32,109 nt of DNA, from contig CALFBM010000070.1 of the NCBI GenBank assembly GCA_937951645.1, forward strand, positions 1-32,109, given 5' to 3'. Below are positions 25,464 through 32,109 of the stretch, piece after piece. The notes beneath the pieces were generated by a model. That model searched no databases and was not told where the DNA came from. It worked only from the letters and a program-made list of their open reading frames with translations. Within the stretch, counting starts at the first letter, position 1; the number at the start of each line of letters is the position of its first letter. The stretch comes from an uncultured Rhizobiaceae group bacterium (GTDB lineage: Bacteria > Pseudomonadota > Alphaproteobacteria > Rhizobiales > Rhizobiaceae). A program made the translations under genes and the position numbers.

Positions 25464-26429
25464 TTATTCAGCAGCTTCGCTTACGCTTTCCATTTCTGCA
25501 AGGTATTTTTCAGCTTCCAGTGCGGCCATACAGCCCATGCCGGCAGCAGTTACTGCCTGGCGATAAATATCGTCGGTGATGTCGCCTGCTGCATAAACAC
25601 CGGGAATTTCTGTAGAAGTTGAATCCGGTGCTGTCCAAAGATAGCCAGAATCCTTCTTTTTGAGCTTGCCTTCAAAGAGCTCTGTTTGCGGTGCATGGCC
25701 AATGGCAATGAAGACACCGTCTGTCTTGTGGTCGGTTACTTCGCCTGTATTGCGGTTTTTGATTTTGACACCTGTTACAGAAGGTGGAATGCTTTCCTCA
25801 CCCGTAATTTCAGCAAGTTCGCTATTCCAAATGACTTCGATGTTTTCTTTCTTGAAAACACGTTCCTGCAAGATACGTTCAGCACGAAATTCATCACGGC
25901 GATGAAGGATTGTAATTTTTGATGCAAGGTTTGAAAGATAAAGCGCTTCTTCAATCGCTGTGTTGCCGCCGCCAACAACTACAACTTCCTTGCCGCGATA
26001 AAAGAACCCGTCGCATGTTGCGCAGGCTGAGACACCAAAGCCCATGAACTTGTCTTCAGATGGAAGACCAAGCCACTTTGCTTTTGCTCCTGTACAAATT
26101 ATGATTGTGTCTGCGGTGTAAATTGTCCCGCTATCACCTATCGCCTTAAAAGGGCGAACATCAAGATCAACTTCCATGATGTGATCATTGATGACGTTGG
26201 TTCCGACATTTTTTGCCTGTTCAAGCATTTGTTCCATCATCCACGGCCCCTGAACAGCTTCCGCGTAGCCAGGATAATTTTCAACCTCGGTTGTAATCAT
26301 CAACTGCCCACCTTGCTCAAGACCTGCCACAAGTGTTGGTTCCAGCATGGCGCGTGCACCATAAATTGCTGCTGTATAACCAGCAGGACCGGAACCAATA
26401 ATGAGCATTTTTGTGTGATGTGTAGACAT
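25464..26429 (-). CDS. trxB: Thioredoxin-disulfide reductase
   Basis: A 321-residue flavoenzyme that reduces thioredoxin with NADPH in the cytosol. GSGPAG at 12-17 binds FAD, CATC at 136-139 is the redox-active disulfide, and GGGNTA at 153-158 followed by HRRDEFRAE binds NADPH. The C-terminal FAD motif GVYAAGDITDDIYRQAVTAAGMGCMAAL is complete. The length equals that of the bacterial low-molecular-weight enzyme. First gene of the trxB-lysR-ocd run. The leader contains a seven-base inverted repeat ten bases before the ATG, and no clear Shine-Dalgarno. Confidence 0.97.
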   Translation of the reverse strand: MSTHHTKMLIIGSGPAGYTAAIYGARAMLEPTLVAGLEQGGQLMITTEVENYPGYAEAVQGPWMMEQMLEQAKNVGTNVINDHIMEVDLDVRPFKAIGDSGTIYTADTIIICTGAKAKWLGLPSEDKFMGFGVSACATCDGFFYRGKEVVVVGGGNTAIEEALYLSNLASKITILHRRDEFRAERILQERVFKKENIEVIWNSELAEITGEESIPPSVTGVKIKNRNTGEVTDHKTDGVFIAIGHAPQTELFEGKLKKKDSGYLWTAPDSTSTEIPGVYAAGDITDDIYRQAVTAAGMGCMAALEAEKYLAEMESVSEAAE

Positions 26430-26465: not shown

Positions 26466-26642
26466 AATCGAGCAGGGGGGATTACAAGGGCAAACAGGCC
26501 TGCACACACAGGTTTGAACAAGATGGAGGAACCCAATTTATCGCCCTGATAATATTATGGATTGCGCCTCATGTGTTTGCAGGAACAATATTTTGATGCT
26601 ACCAGACGTTTGATATCCTTTTCATGCAGAAATAGTCCTATA

Positions 26643-27428
26643 ATGAGTGTTGCCAATATTGTTTGTATAAAGTGGGGCGATAAATTTCCACCATATTATG
26701 TCAATCGCCTCTATGCCGGGGTTAAACGCAATTTAAACAGACCTTTCAGGTTCATTTGTTTTACTGAAAATCCGGAAGGTATTCGTGATGAGGTCGAAGT
26801 TCATCCGCTGCCTGTAGTTCCTTTTGAAGATAAAATGGTTACGGCCATGACGACGGGCAAACGCAGAGGTGCGTGGCGAAAAGTCACCATGATGAAACCA
26901 AATGAAGTGGGTCTTGAAGGACCCACTTTGGTGATGGACCTTGATGTTGTGGTGTCGGGGCCGATGGACGGTTTTTTTGACCACGCACCTGGTAAAATTT
27001 GTATGGGTAGAGATTGGTTGGAGCGTCGCCGCCGCCGGGTAGGTGGCCATGGTTCAGTTTACCGGTTTGATCCAGGCAAACATGATTTTCTGTATACAGA
27101 ATTTGCTGATGATATAGAGACTTCGATCGCCTTTAAGGGTGAGCAGCGATATATCTCTTTAACTGCACATAAATACAAGCAACTTGAATATTTTCCTGAT
27201 GGCTGGATATGTTCTTTCAAGCGTCAGGCGATACCCATATTGCCCTTGAATTTTGTAATTGAGCCAAAGTTGCCTGATACTTGCCGGGTAATGTGTTTTC
27301 ATGGCGATCCCAAAATGGAAGAGGCAATTGTAGGTGTAGGAACAAAGCTCCGCTATAAGACAAGACCTGCAAAATGGTTGCGTGAGCTTTGGCTGGATAG
27401 TCACGAACGTGATTGGATGCCATCATGA
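26643..27428 (+). CDS. Glycosyltransferase-like protein with DxD motif
   Basis: A 261-residue protein beginning MSVANIVCIKWGDKFPPYYVNRLYAGVKRNL. The core LVMDLDVVVSGPMD (DLD at 99-101) resembles the nucleotide-sugar/metal site of GT-A-fold transferases such as GT8-like proteins. RFICFTENPEGI and VMCFHGDPK are further typical segments; the final His-Gly could bind metal. I chose the ATG at 26643 because family members start at this motif; the frame is open 81 bases upstream from a TTG, and no good ribosome site is seen for either. It overlaps the next gene by ATGA, so the two are translationally coupled. It probably acts in cell-surface glycan synthesis. Confidence 0.72.
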   Translation: MSVANIVCIKWGDKFPPYYVNRLYAGVKRNLNRPFRFICFTENPEGIRDEVEVHPLPVVPFEDKMVTAMTTGKRRGAWRKVTMMKPNEVGLEGPTLVMDLDVVVSGPMDGFFDHAPGKICMGRDWLERRRRRVGGHGSVYRFDPGKHDFLYTEFADDIETSIAFKGEQRYISLTAHKYKQLEYFPDGWICSFKRQAIPILPLNFVIEPKLPDTCRVMCFHGDPKMEEAIVGVGTKLRYKTRPAKWLRELWLDSHERDWMPS

Positions 27429-28888
27429 CCATACGTTTGTTATGTGTATCAACTGCAGATAATACAGACCGTATCCTGAATGCCCTGGTCGAGAGTTCTG
27501 ATGACATAGAGCTTCGTTTGCATTTTGGTAATGATATGGCCGATTTCAAGGCCTCATCGCTTTCACGGATGGATACCCGCAAGGGGCAACGCGGACATTT
27601 GATGCGTGAGCAATATTATGCCGGTGAAAATTATGAGCTGCTTTCTTCGCCCATCTTCAAGGAAAGCATGGAGCGCACTGTTGACCAGCTTTTCAGGTAT
27701 TCAGATGGATATCGGTATCGCTCTCACAATTTGAAAAACCTTCAGGACTATCTGGATTATTTTTATATTCTGAGTGACACCTTGGCCCGGCAGATTAAAG
27801 AGGAAAAGATTACGCATGCGCTTTTCTTTAATGTACCGCACCTGGTTTGTGATACGATTTTATATGATCTTTGCAAATGCCTTGGCATTAAAACAGTCGT
27901 TGTAACGCAGTCGATTTTTCCAGGTAAATATTTCTCAATGCAGAGTGTCGAGGACTATGGGTTTTTTGATGGGAAGAAATCAAAAGCTGCTCCCATGATT
28001 ATTGATCAAGAGCAAAACCTTGACTTGTTTTACATGAAGGCTATAGGCCAGGCACCTGACAAGGGTGGCAGCCTGTCTTCCAAAGGCTTGCTCAATGTAC
28101 TGGCTTATATTTTGCTGAAAAAGCCGGGGATGTTTTTACGTCCAATCCAGTTCATGAAAATGCTTAAACGGGTTCGGAAAATTTATGCCGGTTTTCCGAA
28201 ATGGAGAGACCCGTTTTCAAGATTTTTCCATGAAAATGAAATGGCATATTTTGAACATTTGATGGAATTTGAAAACCAGCAAATTGATATTGAGCAGCGC
28301 TTTATATATTTCCCATTACAGTTGCAGCCGGAAATGACGACATCATCACTTGGCGGCATGTTTCGCGACCAATTATTGGCGATCGAGAAGCTTTCCGGAA
28401 TTTTGCCCAGTGATGTGAAAATCTACGTGAAAGAAAACCCAAAACAAGGTGCATATTCCAGAGGCCCGTTTTTCTTTCACCGATTAAACCGTATACCCAA
28501 TGTGGTTTTCATGCCGTCATTTGCAAACACCAATACATTGATCGCGCATTGCGAGGCTGTGGCAACCATAACAGGGACGGTTGGGTGGGAAGCCATTCGC
28601 AAGGGCAAAAAAGCAATCGTTTTTGGCAATACCTGGTACTCCAGTTTTCCAGGTATTTTACGGTGGTCGGAAAAGCTCAAGTATTCAGATGTGGAAAAAA
28701 CCAAAATCAGGCACGCACAGCTCGAAAAAATTGCAGGTGCATTAGTAAATGCTTGTCACGACGGTGTTGTTGAGCGTCATTATGTGGATATTGATGAAGG
28801 CCATGATGTAGAGAAAAATATTGTATCTGTAGCTACGGTTATTCGTGGTATTTTAACAAGTGAAATGAGTCCTGTATTTTCGAAATAA
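27425..28888 (+). CDS. Capsule-polysaccharide-synthesis-like protein (KpsC/KpsS-related), paralogue 1
   Basis: A 487-residue predicted cytosolic protein. The C-terminal half has YFPLQLQPEMTTSSLGG, DQLLAIEKLSGILP, IYVKENPKQ and ATITGTVGWEAIRKGKKAIVFG, the pattern of the Capsule_synth family whose characterised members KpsC and KpsS transfer Kdo in capsule linkers. The N-terminal half (about 1-200) includes HALFFNVPHLVCDTILYDLCK and QSIFPGKYF, shared with the convergent paralogue. The ATG at 27425 overlaps the preceding gene. Because pseF and pseG lie close by, a nonulosonate (pseudaminate) donor is plausible, Kdo and pseudaminate both being CMP-activated nine/eight-carbon ulosonates (inference). 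Confidence 0.7.
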   Translation: MTIRLLCVSTADNTDRILNALVESSDDIELRLHFGNDMADFKASSLSRMDTRKGQRGHLMREQYYAGENYELLSSPIFKESMERTVDQLFRYSDGYRYRSHNLKNLQDYLDYFYILSDTLARQIKEEKITHALFFNVPHLVCDTILYDLCKCLGIKTVVVTQSIFPGKYFSMQSVEDYGFFDGKKSKAAPMIIDQEQNLDLFYMKAIGQAPDKGGSLSSKGLLNVLAYILLKKPGMFLRPIQFMKMLKRVRKIYAGFPKWRDPFSRFFHENEMAYFEHLMEFENQQIDIEQRFIYFPLQLQPEMTTSSLGGMFRDQLLAIEKLSGILPSDVKIYVKENPKQGAYSRGPFFFHRLNRIPNVVFMPSFANTNTLIAHCEAVATITGTVGWEAIRKGKKAIVFGNTWYSSFPGILRWSEKLKYSDVEKTKIRHAQLEKIAGALVNACHDGVVERHYVDIDEGHDVEKNIVSVATVIRGILTSEMSPVFSK

Positions 28889-28894
28889 AAAACC

Positions 28895-30268
28895 TTACCT
28901 GATACTTTCATGTAAAATCCTTGTCAGTTTTAAAGCATTTTCGTGTTCATCATAATCCTTGACCATTACGGAGTATTCAATGTCGCAAATTCCATCATGG
29001 GCAAACCTGCTTAATTCGTTTACTGCTGATTGAAGTTGTTTCTTGTCAAAGACAAATTCTGAAACGGATTTCCATTTTAATTCTTTTGAAAACCTGAATG
29101 CTCCTGGTAAATTGTTCCAATAAACATTCCCGAATACAATGGCAGGCTTTTTCATTCGAATAGCTTCCCACCCTGCTGTTCCTGTTATGGTTGCTACTGC
29201 TTTTGAATTTTTTATAAGCTCAAAGCTTGGTGTTGATTTGTCCAGAAACTTTGCATTTCTCAGTTTCGAGAGCCTTTCAAAGAAAGTTTCGCTACGAAAA
29301 AGCCCGGTTTGTTTTGGATTTTCCTTTATATAAATTGCTACCTTGTCAGGCATGATTTCCCGTAGATGTTCCAGAGCCAGAAGCTGGTCTGCATATTTGC
29401 CGCCCAAAACATCTGTTGTCATTTCTGGTTGAAGATGAAGCGGAAAATAAATGTAATCCTCGGCTTGTGGGAGATCGCAGAAAACACCCTTTGCCCGTTT
29501 GTAATAGTATGAGCTTTCCACTGCATTTTGCCATCGACGGGAATTGATATGAAAATTTCTTTTACGCTCTTCAGCTTTAAATCCATTTAACCCTAAAGTG
29601 ACCAAGCTACGTGCACGTATTTGCTTGGCAATATTACGAATGATCAGGTTTTGGTTCCCTTTTACATTCTTCATATAAAATGGTTGTGCAGATGGTTCAT
29701 TTATGTCGATGTGAAACCTGGAAGAAGTTTTGGAAGTTTCAAATTTTCCTATATCTGTCCAGTCTTCAACTATCCAGCTTTTACCTGGGAATGGGCTTTG
29801 TAAAAAGATGTATGTTTTTATTCCCAATGCTTTTGCAACTGCAAATTGGCTGATTGCAATGCCTTGGTGAGGTACATTTGAAAAAAACAGGCATTCAATC
29901 TGATGTTTTTTTATCCAGCCATAAGCGTAATCACATGCCACCTTGAAAAGGTTGTTGTAATCGCCCCAGTTTTTAATGAATGACGCTGACCATGGCCAGC
30001 GGTCTGTCGTCGAAATGAATTCATCAAAGTATTTTTCTTTTGCTGCTTCGATTATTTCTGCTGGAGAATTAATGGATACGGCATCCCTGAAATTATACTC
30101 TTTCCAGTCATGAAAGTTTTGACAACTGTCGTCTGAATTGATGCGTTTTTTCTTGTTTTTATGGTTGGAATAAATATGCGCAGTAATATTTAAATTCTGT
30201 TCCCTGAACACCTTTGCCGTTTCAGTGCTAAAACCTATCAGGCCTATTTTCCTGGTTGTTTGAACCAT
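28895..30268 (-). CDS. Capsule-polysaccharide-synthesis-like protein (KpsC/KpsS-related), paralogue 2
   Basis: A 457-residue protein clearly homologous to its convergent neighbour: CLFFSNVPHQGIAISQFAVAKALGIKT, QSPFPGK, YFPLHLQPEMTTDVLGGKYADQLLALE, IYIKENPKQ and ATITGTAGWEAIRMKKPAIVFG line up along the length. The two genes end six bases apart. This copy starts five bases after pseF, with AAGGACC just before the ATG, so it is translated with the CMP-pseudaminate synthetase. That makes it the better candidate for a transferase using the PseF product. No transmembrane segment is apparent. Its codon use is somewhat more AT-rich than that of central genes, as is common in glycan loci. Confidence 0.7.
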   Translation of the reverse strand: MVQTTRKIGLIGFSTETAKVFREQNLNITAHIYSNHKNKKKRINSDDSCQNFHDWKEYNFRDAVSINSPAEIIEAAKEKYFDEFISTTDRWPWSASFIKNWGDYNNLFKVACDYAYGWIKKHQIECLFFSNVPHQGIAISQFAVAKALGIKTYIFLQSPFPGKSWIVEDWTDIGKFETSKTSSRFHIDINEPSAQPFYMKNVKGNQNLIIRNIAKQIRARSLVTLGLNGFKAEERKRNFHINSRRWQNAVESSYYYKRAKGVFCDLPQAEDYIYFPLHLQPEMTTDVLGGKYADQLLALEHLREIMPDKVAIYIKENPKQTGLFRSETFFERLSKLRNAKFLDKSTPSFELIKNSKAVATITGTAGWEAIRMKKPAIVFGNVYWNNLPGAFRFSKELKWKSVSEFVFDKKQLQSAVNELSRFAHDGICDIEYSVMVKDYDEHENALKLTRILHESIR

Positions 30269-30273
30269 GGTCC

Positions 30274-30960
30274 TTATGCTCGTATCAACTGTTTATGCAG
30301 TAATTCTGCAAGCTTGAAGTCTTCTGGTGTATCAATATCAACTGCGCGGTCACGCTCTATTTGATAACCAATTGTTTTTTTCATCACCAGTTTTTCCTGC
30401 TTTAAAAATGATGTGGTATTGAAAAAGTAAAAAGCGCCGGCATCATGGAGAAGTTCGGGCAAGTCCTGCGAGCGTGTCAGGGCAAATTCCTGCCATTTAA
30501 AATCAATGTTGCCTTCTTGGTTTTGTTCAAAAGCGCGTAGCGGATGAAAGTCGAATTCAGTGACGGAGATTATGCTGTCTGCATTTTTTCCAGCCAATTT
30601 TGAATATGCCTTTTGAAAATCATCAGGTCTTAACAAGGGGGCTGTCGGATAAAGACAGCATGCATAATCTGAAGGATCAATTTTTGAAAGCGTGTCCAGC
30701 AAGACTTCGGCAGTTGTTGCAAAATCATCTGCCAGTTTTGCTGACCGCATGAATGGCACTTCTGCACCATGGTGTTGGGCTATTTTAGCTATTTCTGTGT
30801 CATCTGTGGAAACCATGACTTTGGAAAATACGTTGCTTTTTATGGCGTTTTCAATTGACCATGCGATTAGTGGCTTGCCATTAAAGGAAAGTACATTCTT
30901 GCGGGGAATGCGCTTGCTGCCGCCGCGGGCCGGTATGATGCAAATCGGTTTTGAGGACAT
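30274..30960 (-). CDS. pseF: Pseudaminic acid cytidylyltransferase
   Basis: A 228-residue CMP-nonulosonate synthetase. CIIPARGGSKRIPRKNV at the N-terminus is the CTP-binding signature; STDDTEIAKIAQHHGAEVPFMRS and YPTAPLLRPDDF follow, and DRAVDIDTPEDFKLAE closes the fold. It activates a nonulosonic acid with CTP to give the CMP-sugar. PseF rather than NeuA or LegF is chosen because of overall length and the adjacent pseG gene. It is divergent from pseG across 121 bases, and leads a two-gene run with the capsule-like paralogue. Product may modify flagellin, LPS or capsule. Confidence 0.85.
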   Translation of the reverse strand: MSSKPICIIPARGGSKRIPRKNVLSFNGKPLIAWSIENAIKSNVFSKVMVSTDDTEIAKIAQHHGAEVPFMRSAKLADDFATTAEVLLDTLSKIDPSDYACCLYPTAPLLRPDDFQKAYSKLAGKNADSIISVTEFDFHPLRAFEQNQEGNIDFKWQEFALTRSQDLPELLHDAGAFYFFNTTSFLKQEKLVMKKTIGYQIERDRAVDIDTPEDFKLAELLHKQLIRA

Positions 30961-31040: not shown

Positions 31041-31081
31041 GAGGTAGCGGTTTTTATGTTGTTAAGTAGGACTTGAAATTT

Positions 31082-32109
31082 ATGCGTTTTGCTTTTCGTG
31101 TTGATAGCTCGCCAAAAATTGGCATGGGTCATATCATGCGTTGTTTGACGCTTGCAAATGGCCTTAGAAAAAGTGGTTTTGAGTGTTATTTCATCTGCCG
31201 GGATTTTGCAGGAAATGGTGTCAGACACGTTAAGGACAGCGGTTTTCAACTTGAATTGTTAAGTAATGAGGGGGCGATATTAAATTCAACCTGGCTTGGG
31301 GTGCCTCTTCAGCACGATGTAAACGATACATTGTGTGCTCTGTCTGCAAAGCCTGTTGATTGGCTTGTTGTCGATCACTACGACATTGACAAGCAGTGGG
31401 AAGCGCAGGTTCGGTCCGGATTTCCTGCCGTGAAGGTTTTGGTTATTGATGATCTGGCAGACCGGGCACATGACTGTGATGTTTTGGTTGACCAAACATA
31501 CGGGCGAGGGAGCCAAGAATATCAGGGGCTTGTTCCGCAGGACGCAAAATTTTGTCTGGGCACTGATTTTGCCCTGTTACGCCCGCAGTTCAAGGAACTT
31601 AAAGAGCGATATGCCGAACAAGAAAAATCAAGAGATAGCATATGTCATATTCTGGTCACTCTGGGGGGAGGCGATAATTGCCAGCCTGTTCAGGTCATTG
31701 GCAAGGCTTTAAAAAAACTTGCTCAGGATCAATCGTTTTCAGTAACAGTTATTACGGGCAATACACCGGAAAAGTTATTGGCGGATTACAAAGACCTCAC
31801 CGGAAATGTGGAATTTATAAGGTTTTCAAGTGATGTTGAAAATGAGATGGCAAAAGCGGATTTTGTGATTGGTGCAGGCGGTGGCACAAGCTGGGAAAGG
31901 TGTTGTATGGGTCTTCCAACAGTCGTGTTAACAATCGCAGATAATCAAATTGAAATTGCCAGGATATTAAATGACAAACGGGCTGGTATTTCTGTTGATA
32001 CAAATGTTGATGAAATCGCATCTGCTGCAAAAACCCTGCTTGTCGATCACTCTCTGCGTCTGGAAATGAGCAAGAATGCTGCACGTTTATGTGATGGAAA
32101 CGGAGTTGC
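31082..32109 (+). CDS. pseG: UDP-2,4-diacetamido-2,4,6-trideoxy-beta-L-altropyranose hydrolase (partial)
   Basis: The first 342 residues are visible; the gene continues past the right edge. FRVDSSPKIGMGHIMRCLTLA is the N-terminal PseG/SpsG signature with the catalytic-type His in GMGHIMRC. WLVVDHYDID, ILVTLGGGDN and VIGAGGGTSWERCCMGLPTV complete the GT-B-like fold, whose last motif binds the UDP part. PseG removes UDP to give 2,4-diacetamido-trideoxy-altrose, the fourth step of pseudaminic acid synthesis (established). Fused C-terminal acetyltransferase domains (PseH) occur in some species and cannot be excluded. AGG lies 11 bases before the ATG. The remaining pse genes probably follow outside the window. 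Confidence 0.9.
   Translation, partial: MRFAFRVDSSPKIGMGHIMRCLTLANGLRKSGFECYFICRDFAGNGVRHVKDSGFQLELLSNEGAILNSTWLGVPLQHDVNDTLCALSAKPVDWLVVDHYDIDKQWEAQVRSGFPAVKVLVIDDLADRAHDCDVLVDQTYGRGSQEYQGLVPQDAKFCLGTDFALLRPQFKELKERYAEQEKSRDSICHILVTLGGGDNCQPVQVIGKALKKLAQDQSFSVTVITGNTPEKLLADYKDLTGNVEFIRFSSDVENEMAKADFVIGAGGGTSWERCCMGLPTVVLTIADNQIEIARILNDKRAGISVDTNVDEIASAAKTLLVDHSLRLEMSKNAARLCDGNGV

Follow-up and report, generated by a model that had tools for sequence, protein, structure and literature searches.

Two anciently diverged KpsS1-related proteins, probable pseudaminyltransferases, encoded beside pseF in a Rhizobiaceae genome

Results

Genes of the locus

We analyzed a 32,109-nt stretch of DNA from an uncultured Rhizobiaceae bacterium (GenBank assembly GCA_937951645.1, contig CALFBM010000070.1), hereafter the window, which is contig 70 of 208 in a 2.8-Mb genome with a completeness of ~82%, and we focused on two of its genes, whose products are here called proteins A and B. 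Pseudaminic acid (Pse) is a sialic-acid-like sugar that decorates many bacterial surfaces, and the gene for the enzyme that makes its cytidine monophosphate (CMP)-activated form, pseF, lies next to the gene for B. The features of the locus are as follows (positions are those of the window).

25464–26429, minus strand: trxB (name assigned by eye)
26643–27428, plus strand: putative GT-A-like glycosyltransferase with a DLD (DxD) motif, here the DxD gene (open reading frame 26562–27428, likely ATG at 26643)
27413–28888, plus strand: protein A, KpsS1-like putative pseudaminyltransferase, PF05159, clade A (alternative start 27425)
28331–28333, plus strand: codon of Glu307 of A, in QLQPE, numbered from 27413, proposed nucleophile (coordinates from the open reading frame start)
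28895–30268, minus strand: protein B, KpsS1-like putative pseudaminyltransferase, PF05159, clade B
29423–29425, minus strand: codon of Glu282 of B, in HLQPE, proposed nucleophile (coordinates from the open reading frame start)
30274–30960, minus strand: pseF, pseudaminic acid cytidylyltransferase, makes CMP-Pse (TIGR03584, 1e-81, over the cut-off)
~31073–32109, plus strand: pseG, pseudaminate-pathway uridine diphosphate (UDP)-sugar hydrolase, truncated at the contig end (TIGR03590, 3.4e-83, over the cut-off)

The genes for A and B are convergent, with stops at 28886–28888 (A) and, on the minus strand, at 28895–28897 (B), and the six bases that a first-pass annotation of this DNA had placed between them were confirmed on the printed sequence. 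The couplings it had described were likewise borne out: the start of B follows the stop of pseF by 5 bases, and the end of the DxD gene shares an ATGA with the ATG at 27425, which is in frame with A. Because of this overlap, the true start of A may be ATG 27425 and not the annotated start at 27413, which is a TTG. The pseI gene of this genome is on a different contig from pseF and pseG (contig 54; locus L123, 9631–10704), where it adjoins clpP and clpX (neighbours identified by eye).

Relationship to KpsS1

Proteins A and B are 33% identical, with 51% positives, over 407 amino acids (E = 4e-67), a similarity far beyond chance that upholds their proposed paralogy. Both matched PF05159 (Capsule_synth, the KpsC/KpsS family), A at 8e-9 and B at 2.7e-9, scoring 35.8 and 37.4 bits against a curated cut-off of 20, and no other PF05159 proteins were found in their ~82% complete genome. 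The relationship to KpsC and KpsS that had been claimed for them stands at the level of the family; similarity to KpsC and KpsS themselves was local (B matched KpsS at 6e-5 and KpsC at 0.8, and A matched them at 1.1 and 0.002, respectively; a profile match to KpsC gave 2.8e-8), whereas similarity to KpsS1 covered most of the length (B, 23% identity over 463 amino acids, E ~1e-16; A, 22% over 344 amino acids, E ~3e-11). The closest CHARACTERISED relative of A and B is a known pseudaminyltransferase, KpsS1. A phage collection gave no match to B, and a PDB sequence search with B alone returned nothing useful.

KpsS1 of Acinetobacter baumannii is a retaining Pse5Ac7Ac transferase, the founder of GT118 and a homologue of KpsC and KpsS (Walklett et al. 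2024, as cited in PMC12887879), and Glu132 in its YE motif is the proposed general base, according to PMC12887879; KpsS1 to KpsS5 appear as glycosyltransferases of Acinetobacter capsule loci in PMC9676051. That known members of the family use CMP-3-deoxy-D-manno-oct-2-ulosonic acid (CMP-Kdo), as the first-pass annotation had it, is out of date, since KpsS1 uses Pse5Ac7Ac (PMC12887879). The suggestion of a CMP-pseudaminate donor for A and B is well supported by our results; the idea that they are a new type of pseudaminyltransferase is not, KpsS1 (GT118) having already been described (PMC12887879).

A tblastn search of a plasmid collection with B returned 8 records. In two A. baumannii records the match came after pseBCFGHI and a flippase-like gene (recognized by eye), and the matching protein has Glu at position 132 within a YE motif, as described for KpsS1 in PMC12887879, which is why we took it as KpsS1. 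In all six records that we opened, the family protein lay within a pse or other nonulosonate cluster. KpsS1 thus resembles A and B in its location with pse genes as well as in length of similarity, and it shares with them a Pro-Glu dyad at the nucleophile position (below); it differs in having KDHK where A and B have KENP, and ENIS where they have NVPH. Two side observations concern these records. On a 34-kb Klebsiella plasmid (NZ_CP055164.1, L035), a pse cluster and a KpsS1-like protein are flanked by two IS110-family transposase genes that share one protein accession. Two A. baumannii "plasmid" records (NZ_CP077849.1, L033, and NZ_CP104448.1, L121) are probably mislabelled chromosomes, given their sizes (3.66 and 4.09 Mb) and the capsule-type locus in each.

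Linkage to nonulosonate genes

We scanned genome contigs with a four-protein alignment and found 130 relatives; all counts over 80 loci refer to the best 80 of these 130. Selection of these loci relied on the motifs YFPL[HQ]LQP and [IV]Y[VI]KENPK, which biases counts of KENP and QP, and their gene labels are best hits to reference proteins rather than curated calls, counted at E 1e-20. Two of the loci, L041 and L042, represent genes already present in the scan query as L004 and L005. The best 80 represented nine named bacterial phyla, together with a bacterium lacking a phylum name and an archaeon; the archaeal member stands on a Methanophagales metagenome-assembled contig with nonulosonate-like genes (L116).

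At least two distinct pse steps were present at 47 of the 80 loci and a single step at 6, NeuC was found at 6 more, and 21 had none of these. All of pseB, C, F and I were present at 24 loci, and at 44 a nonulosonate gene lay within 200 bases of the family gene. Loci L041 (UR115), L112 and L114 are minimal islands that combine a complete or near-complete pse set with one clade member. One locus, L109, which also has a pse set, carried a kds-like gene (E 1e-20 or better); L039 and L089 had weaker KdsB-like best hits. The homologues are therefore not mostly found with kps/kds genes and without a nonulosonate pathway, the pattern that had been put forward as refuting a pseudaminate role.

The association extended to whole genomes, with PseI above its curated cut-off in 60 of the 80 clade genomes (37/50 and 23/30). 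Among the 21 loci without counted genes, PseI was over the cut-off elsewhere in the genome in 18, the exceptions being L048, L080 and L107, the last of which has a NeuB-like gene at a distance of 1.4 kb. A draw of 289 genomes from the window's class, taxonomically unmatched to the 80 clade genomes, contained 51 with PseI above the cut-off and 30 with a relative of B. PseI over the cut-off was found in 17/30 family-positive versus 34/259 family-negative genomes (p = 3e-7). The corresponding figures for a PseI-family match of any strength were 29/30 and 101/259 (p = 2e-10). These Fisher tests treat genomes as independent, which genomes are not. Three of the 30 family-positive genomes (G000, G040 and G052) fall in the window's narrow clade. 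In control genomes, the PseI searches matched 8 of 14, one of them over the cut-off.

Fold and proposed nucleophile

Confident AlphaFold2 models of B (predicted local distance difference test, 91.2; predicted template modelling score, 0.90) and A (90.3 and 0.89) both had KpsC and WbbB as their top structural matches in VIA-align (Z ~12–13), ranking above sugar epimerases and other GT-B proteins, while KrkA (Z 11.2 for B and 10.0 for A) was level with the sugar epimerases. KpsC (GT107) and KpsS are beta-Kdo transferases of group 2 capsules, and the WbbB GT99 and KrkA GT140 modules are retaining beta-Kdo transferases; all share the fold or family with A and B. KpsC has two modules, whereas A and B have one each.

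In the QxxxD motif of KpsC, Asp160 is the nucleophile and Gln156 binds the carboxylate, according to PMC12887879. A profile–profile alignment against a three-row profile of KpsC-N, KpsC-C and KpsS placed Glu282 of B on Asp160 and His278 on Gln156 without a gap (probability 97%, E 5e-11), and the MAFFT column was concordant. In alignments with hhalign against single sequences, local runs with KpsC-N and KpsS stopped short of the motif, the local KpsC-C run paired His278 with Gln and then opened a gap across Pro-Glu, the global KpsC-N run paired Glu282 with Asp160 but following a gap, and the global KpsC-C and KpsS runs gave meaningless alignments. Glu307 of A shares a column with KpsC Asp160 and is invariant in a 48-sequence alignment.

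We then counted residues over 117 family rows, obtained from 126 by dropping six fragments of at most 350 amino acids (two each from L074 and L078, one each from L100 and L108) along with three duplicates (L004, L005 and L121). The Pro-Glu dyad (Pro281-Glu282 in B) was present in 117/117 rows, including KpsS1, A and B, and, in a re-run made on account of the motif bias, in 33/33 rows gathered without the motif pattern; Asn-Asp or Asp-Asp takes its place in KpsC N, KpsC C and KpsS. The motif thus reads HLQPE in B and QLQPE in A, as against the QxxxD of WbbB and KrkA. Because Glu stands on KpsC Asp160 in every row, KpsS1 included, the alignment suggests that these enzymes work by retaining double displacement and that Glu is the nucleophile. 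At the column of the Gln that binds the Kdo carboxylate, A has Gln and B has His; all 10 clade-B rows have His, and the 36 clade-A rows comprise 27 with Gln, 5 with His and 4 with Pro. This column is a candidate site for a difference in donor binding. The HP CMP-binding motif of KpsC and KpsS is absent from A and B, both of which have Asn-Pro (in KENP); over a row set that the search motif skews in part towards KENP, this column had N in 89/117 and H in 23/117 rows.

These results bear on the alternative that A and B are KpsC/KpsS-like Kdo transferases, lying beside pse genes by chance or working on a glycan in which Pse and Kdo alternate. Such a role would fit their PF05159 membership, the fold match to KpsC and WbbB and the profile match to KpsC, and CMP-Kdo is probably at hand because the genome encodes a WaaA-type (PF04413) protein. 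However, the Asp of the Kdo enzymes is replaced by Glu in all 117 rows, A and B are nearer to KpsS1 than to KpsC or KpsS, the clade is almost without kps/kds linkage, and it is associated with PseI. We regard Kdo transfer as very unlikely.

Two clades and their pairing

In a quick, midpoint-rooted tree of the 117 rows, which included A and B and left out the window's own loci (L001–L003), A fell in a group of 36 (support 99) and B in a group of 10 (support 98), both with members in pse islands, while KpsS1 and the Klebsiella and Mesorhizobium rows formed a branch of their own (support 100). The tree marks A and B as two old clades and not the products of a recent duplication, and these clades appear to form a separate, widespread branch beside one published enzyme of like role.

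The convergent B-A-DxD arrangement recurs at L037 and L038, where A is 83% and 78% and B 54% and 53% conserved, respectively. Elsewhere the two occur singly: the L039 genome has B without A, and the L047 genome has A without B, with ~180 bases between A and a truncated pseF. (At L047 the pse genes, trxB and lysR are apparently frameshifted, perhaps through an assembly error.) A and B look like two specificities brought together rather than an obligate complex, and the pair is not an obligate polymerase, because each paralogue occurs alone and single members stand in near-complete pse islands. Pairing itself recurs, with same-strand, same-locus pairs of family members at L062, L063, L068 and L081 (Rickettsiales, Alphaproteobacteria, Campylobacterales and Selenomonas).

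The greA–trxB slot and the acceptor

L037 and L038 carry the full island, in the order greA-pseB-pseC-pseG-pseF-B-A-DxD-GGDEF-trxB; the PseG of L037 is a 501-amino-acid form with an apparent GNAT (PseH-like) C-terminus (judged by eye). In the window, the DxD gene adjoins trxB and the contig ends short of greA. In Sinorhizobium fredii and S. meliloti, the genes that come after greA are lpsB and lpsCDE, transferase genes of the lipopolysaccharide (LPS) core, according to PMC3788101. The L037/L038 island occupies the same greA-side slot, but fills it with pse genes, B, A and the DxD gene.

We compared the trxB-side interval in 17 genomes. An LpsB-type protein, so named from synteny and similarity, lay between greA and trxB in five (G372, G380, G381, G382 and G383) and was GT4-type in all three of these that were scanned. 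G376 and G379 had A, B and the DxD gene, G374 had A and the DxD gene, and G371 had B and the DxD gene; G386, G387, G390, G391, G396 and G398 had no A, B or DxD gene, and G386, the only one of these six in which an LpsB-type protein was sought there, had no orthologue. In a separate set of 17 near genomes searched with the LpsB-type protein, an orthologue (E 8e-84 or better) was present in six, the G373 copy being on a contig other than that of trxB, and the remaining 11 gave partial hits only (27–33%). A or B was found in 7 of 19 near genomes searched with A, all 7 being among the 17 searched with the LpsB-type protein, and none of them had an LpsB-type orthologue too; nor was one found in the island-bearing lineage genomes searched, several of which are incomplete.

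Because the relatives' island takes a slot otherwise occupied by an LpsB-type gene, the LPS core appears, on synteny, to be the likeliest acceptor, to which we give about an even chance. One alternative is that the target is a protein such as flagellin, on which Pse is often found, a point of established knowledge (e.g., PMC3426422). The island's place in an LPS-core gene slot speaks against this, as does the lack of Flagellin_N and PF01973 (Maf-type) matches in the window's ~82% complete genome, where FlmG-type proteins were not searched for and where the PF01973 search matched only in archaeal controls; a protein target is the least probable of the readings we considered.

Another alternative is that A and B together build a Pse-containing polymer, a capsule or K-antigen, rather than decorating the LPS core. 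Two linkages from two clades would suit alternation in such a chain, same-locus paralogues recur at the four loci named above, and a poly-Pse K-antigen is mentioned for S. fredii in PMC3788101. Against this, no export or polymerase gene was recognized by eye in the L037 island, each paralogue occurs alone, and, with A and B as the two PF05159 proteins of their genome, no separate KpsC/KpsS pair was found. We consider a polymer unlikely, though less so than any other alternative.

The DxD enzyme may make the acceptor. Its D100-L101-D102 is invariant in 7 aligned sequences, the window's included. The protein had no Pfam match at E 1 and its 7-member alignment none at E 10, and it had no NCBIfam match at 0.1 and no PDB-sequence match at 10. 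In three further members of the same genus, a 447–478-amino-acid protein with "WI..PIEV" near its N-terminus accompanies the DxD gene in the slot (L159, 12315–13751; L160, 6403–7791; L161, 9389–10732).

Discussion

We conclude that A and B are probably anciently diverged, GT-B-like retaining transferases of the KpsS1 (GT118)-related PF05159 superfamily that move Pse from CMP-Pse. Our computations show homology, matching folds, aligned motifs, Pse genes in the same loci and genomes and, in relatives, the LpsB-type slot; from these we infer the donor, retention, nucleophile, acceptor and order. In the proposed mechanism, PseF, encoded next door, would supply CMP-Pse to both proteins. The Glu (Glu282 in B and Glu307 in A) that replaces the Asp nucleophile of KpsC, WbbB and KrkA would attack the anomeric carbon, forming a covalent sugar–enzyme adduct, which an acceptor hydroxyl would resolve with net retention. 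The DxD enzyme would extend the acceptor first, A would then add the first Pse, and B would add a second Pse, or Pse at another position; this order seems likeliest because there are two clades and the DxD gene is coupled to one of them.

Several observations weigh against parts of this interpretation. Identity to KpsS1 is low (17–23% overall; 19–23% for B and 17–22% for A). The equivalence of Glu282 and Asp160 is one of sequence alignment. The column of KpsS1 Glu132 is Ser in B, Phe in A and Glu in 5/117 rows, and since Glu132 is not conserved, the second half-reaction must use another residue. The LPS-core acceptor rests on synteny among genomes of the genus that are often incomplete, as is the window's, with greA outside the window, and the DxD gene was found in the trxB-side slot of G375 and G377, genomes that gave no A or B match. 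Finally, 20 of the 80 clade genomes had no PseI over the cut-off, four of them falling just below it (L101, L105, L111 and L113), and at L054, L056, L061, L083 and L104 a clade member accompanies NeuC over the cut-off in a genome with no PseI over the cut-off. At these five loci the synthase scores better as NeuB than as PseI, and it is over the NeuB cut-off at L056 only. L056 and its tree neighbour L059 belong to different sugar pathways.

Donors other than Pse are possible for some clade members, because some adjoin NeuB/NeuC genes in genomes without PseI over the cut-off. It could be, then, that the clade uses nonulosonates generally and that A and B differ in the one they take, such as Pse for one protein and a legionaminate- or neuraminate-type sugar for the other, rather than Pse twice. 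The five NeuC/NeuB-like neighbourhoods would fit this, as would the Gln of A and His of B in the column of the Kdo-carboxylate Gln. Yet the best hits in the island of the near relative L037 are all Pse steps, and a single PseI-family synthase was found in the window's own genome at its present completeness. Two different donors for A and B are thus improbable, somewhat more so than a polymer, and we retain Pse as the likeliest donor of both.

No paper on the A/B clade was among the matches listed in searches of an open-access library; the clade may have been described elsewhere or be included in CAZy GT118. To our knowledge, few Pse transferases are known. The Pro-Glu signature, set against the Asp of the Kdo enzymes, together with strong linkage to Pse genes, would allow such enzymes to be recognized in several phyla, and it points to the first residue for mutation. 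The divergent A/B pair in a swapped LPS-core locus is a compact system for studying linkage choice.

It has been suggested, in PMC12887879, that this fold may not readily evolve a switch between pseudaminate and equatorial-C5 sugars. Should the members at NeuB/NeuC loci prove to take legionaminate or sialate, they would be examples of retaining enzymes for donors unexpected in this fold. A more far-reaching proposal, which we hold tentatively and think doubtful as a whole, is that the Pro-Glu superfamily may be a nonulosonate-specific, Glu-nucleophile branch of the retaining Kdo-transferase fold in which the donor has switched between pseudaminate and equatorial-C5 sugars of the legionaminate/neuraminate type, and that A and B of the window may build a Pse-Pse or Pse-branched cap that replaces an LpsB-type LPS core in one genus.

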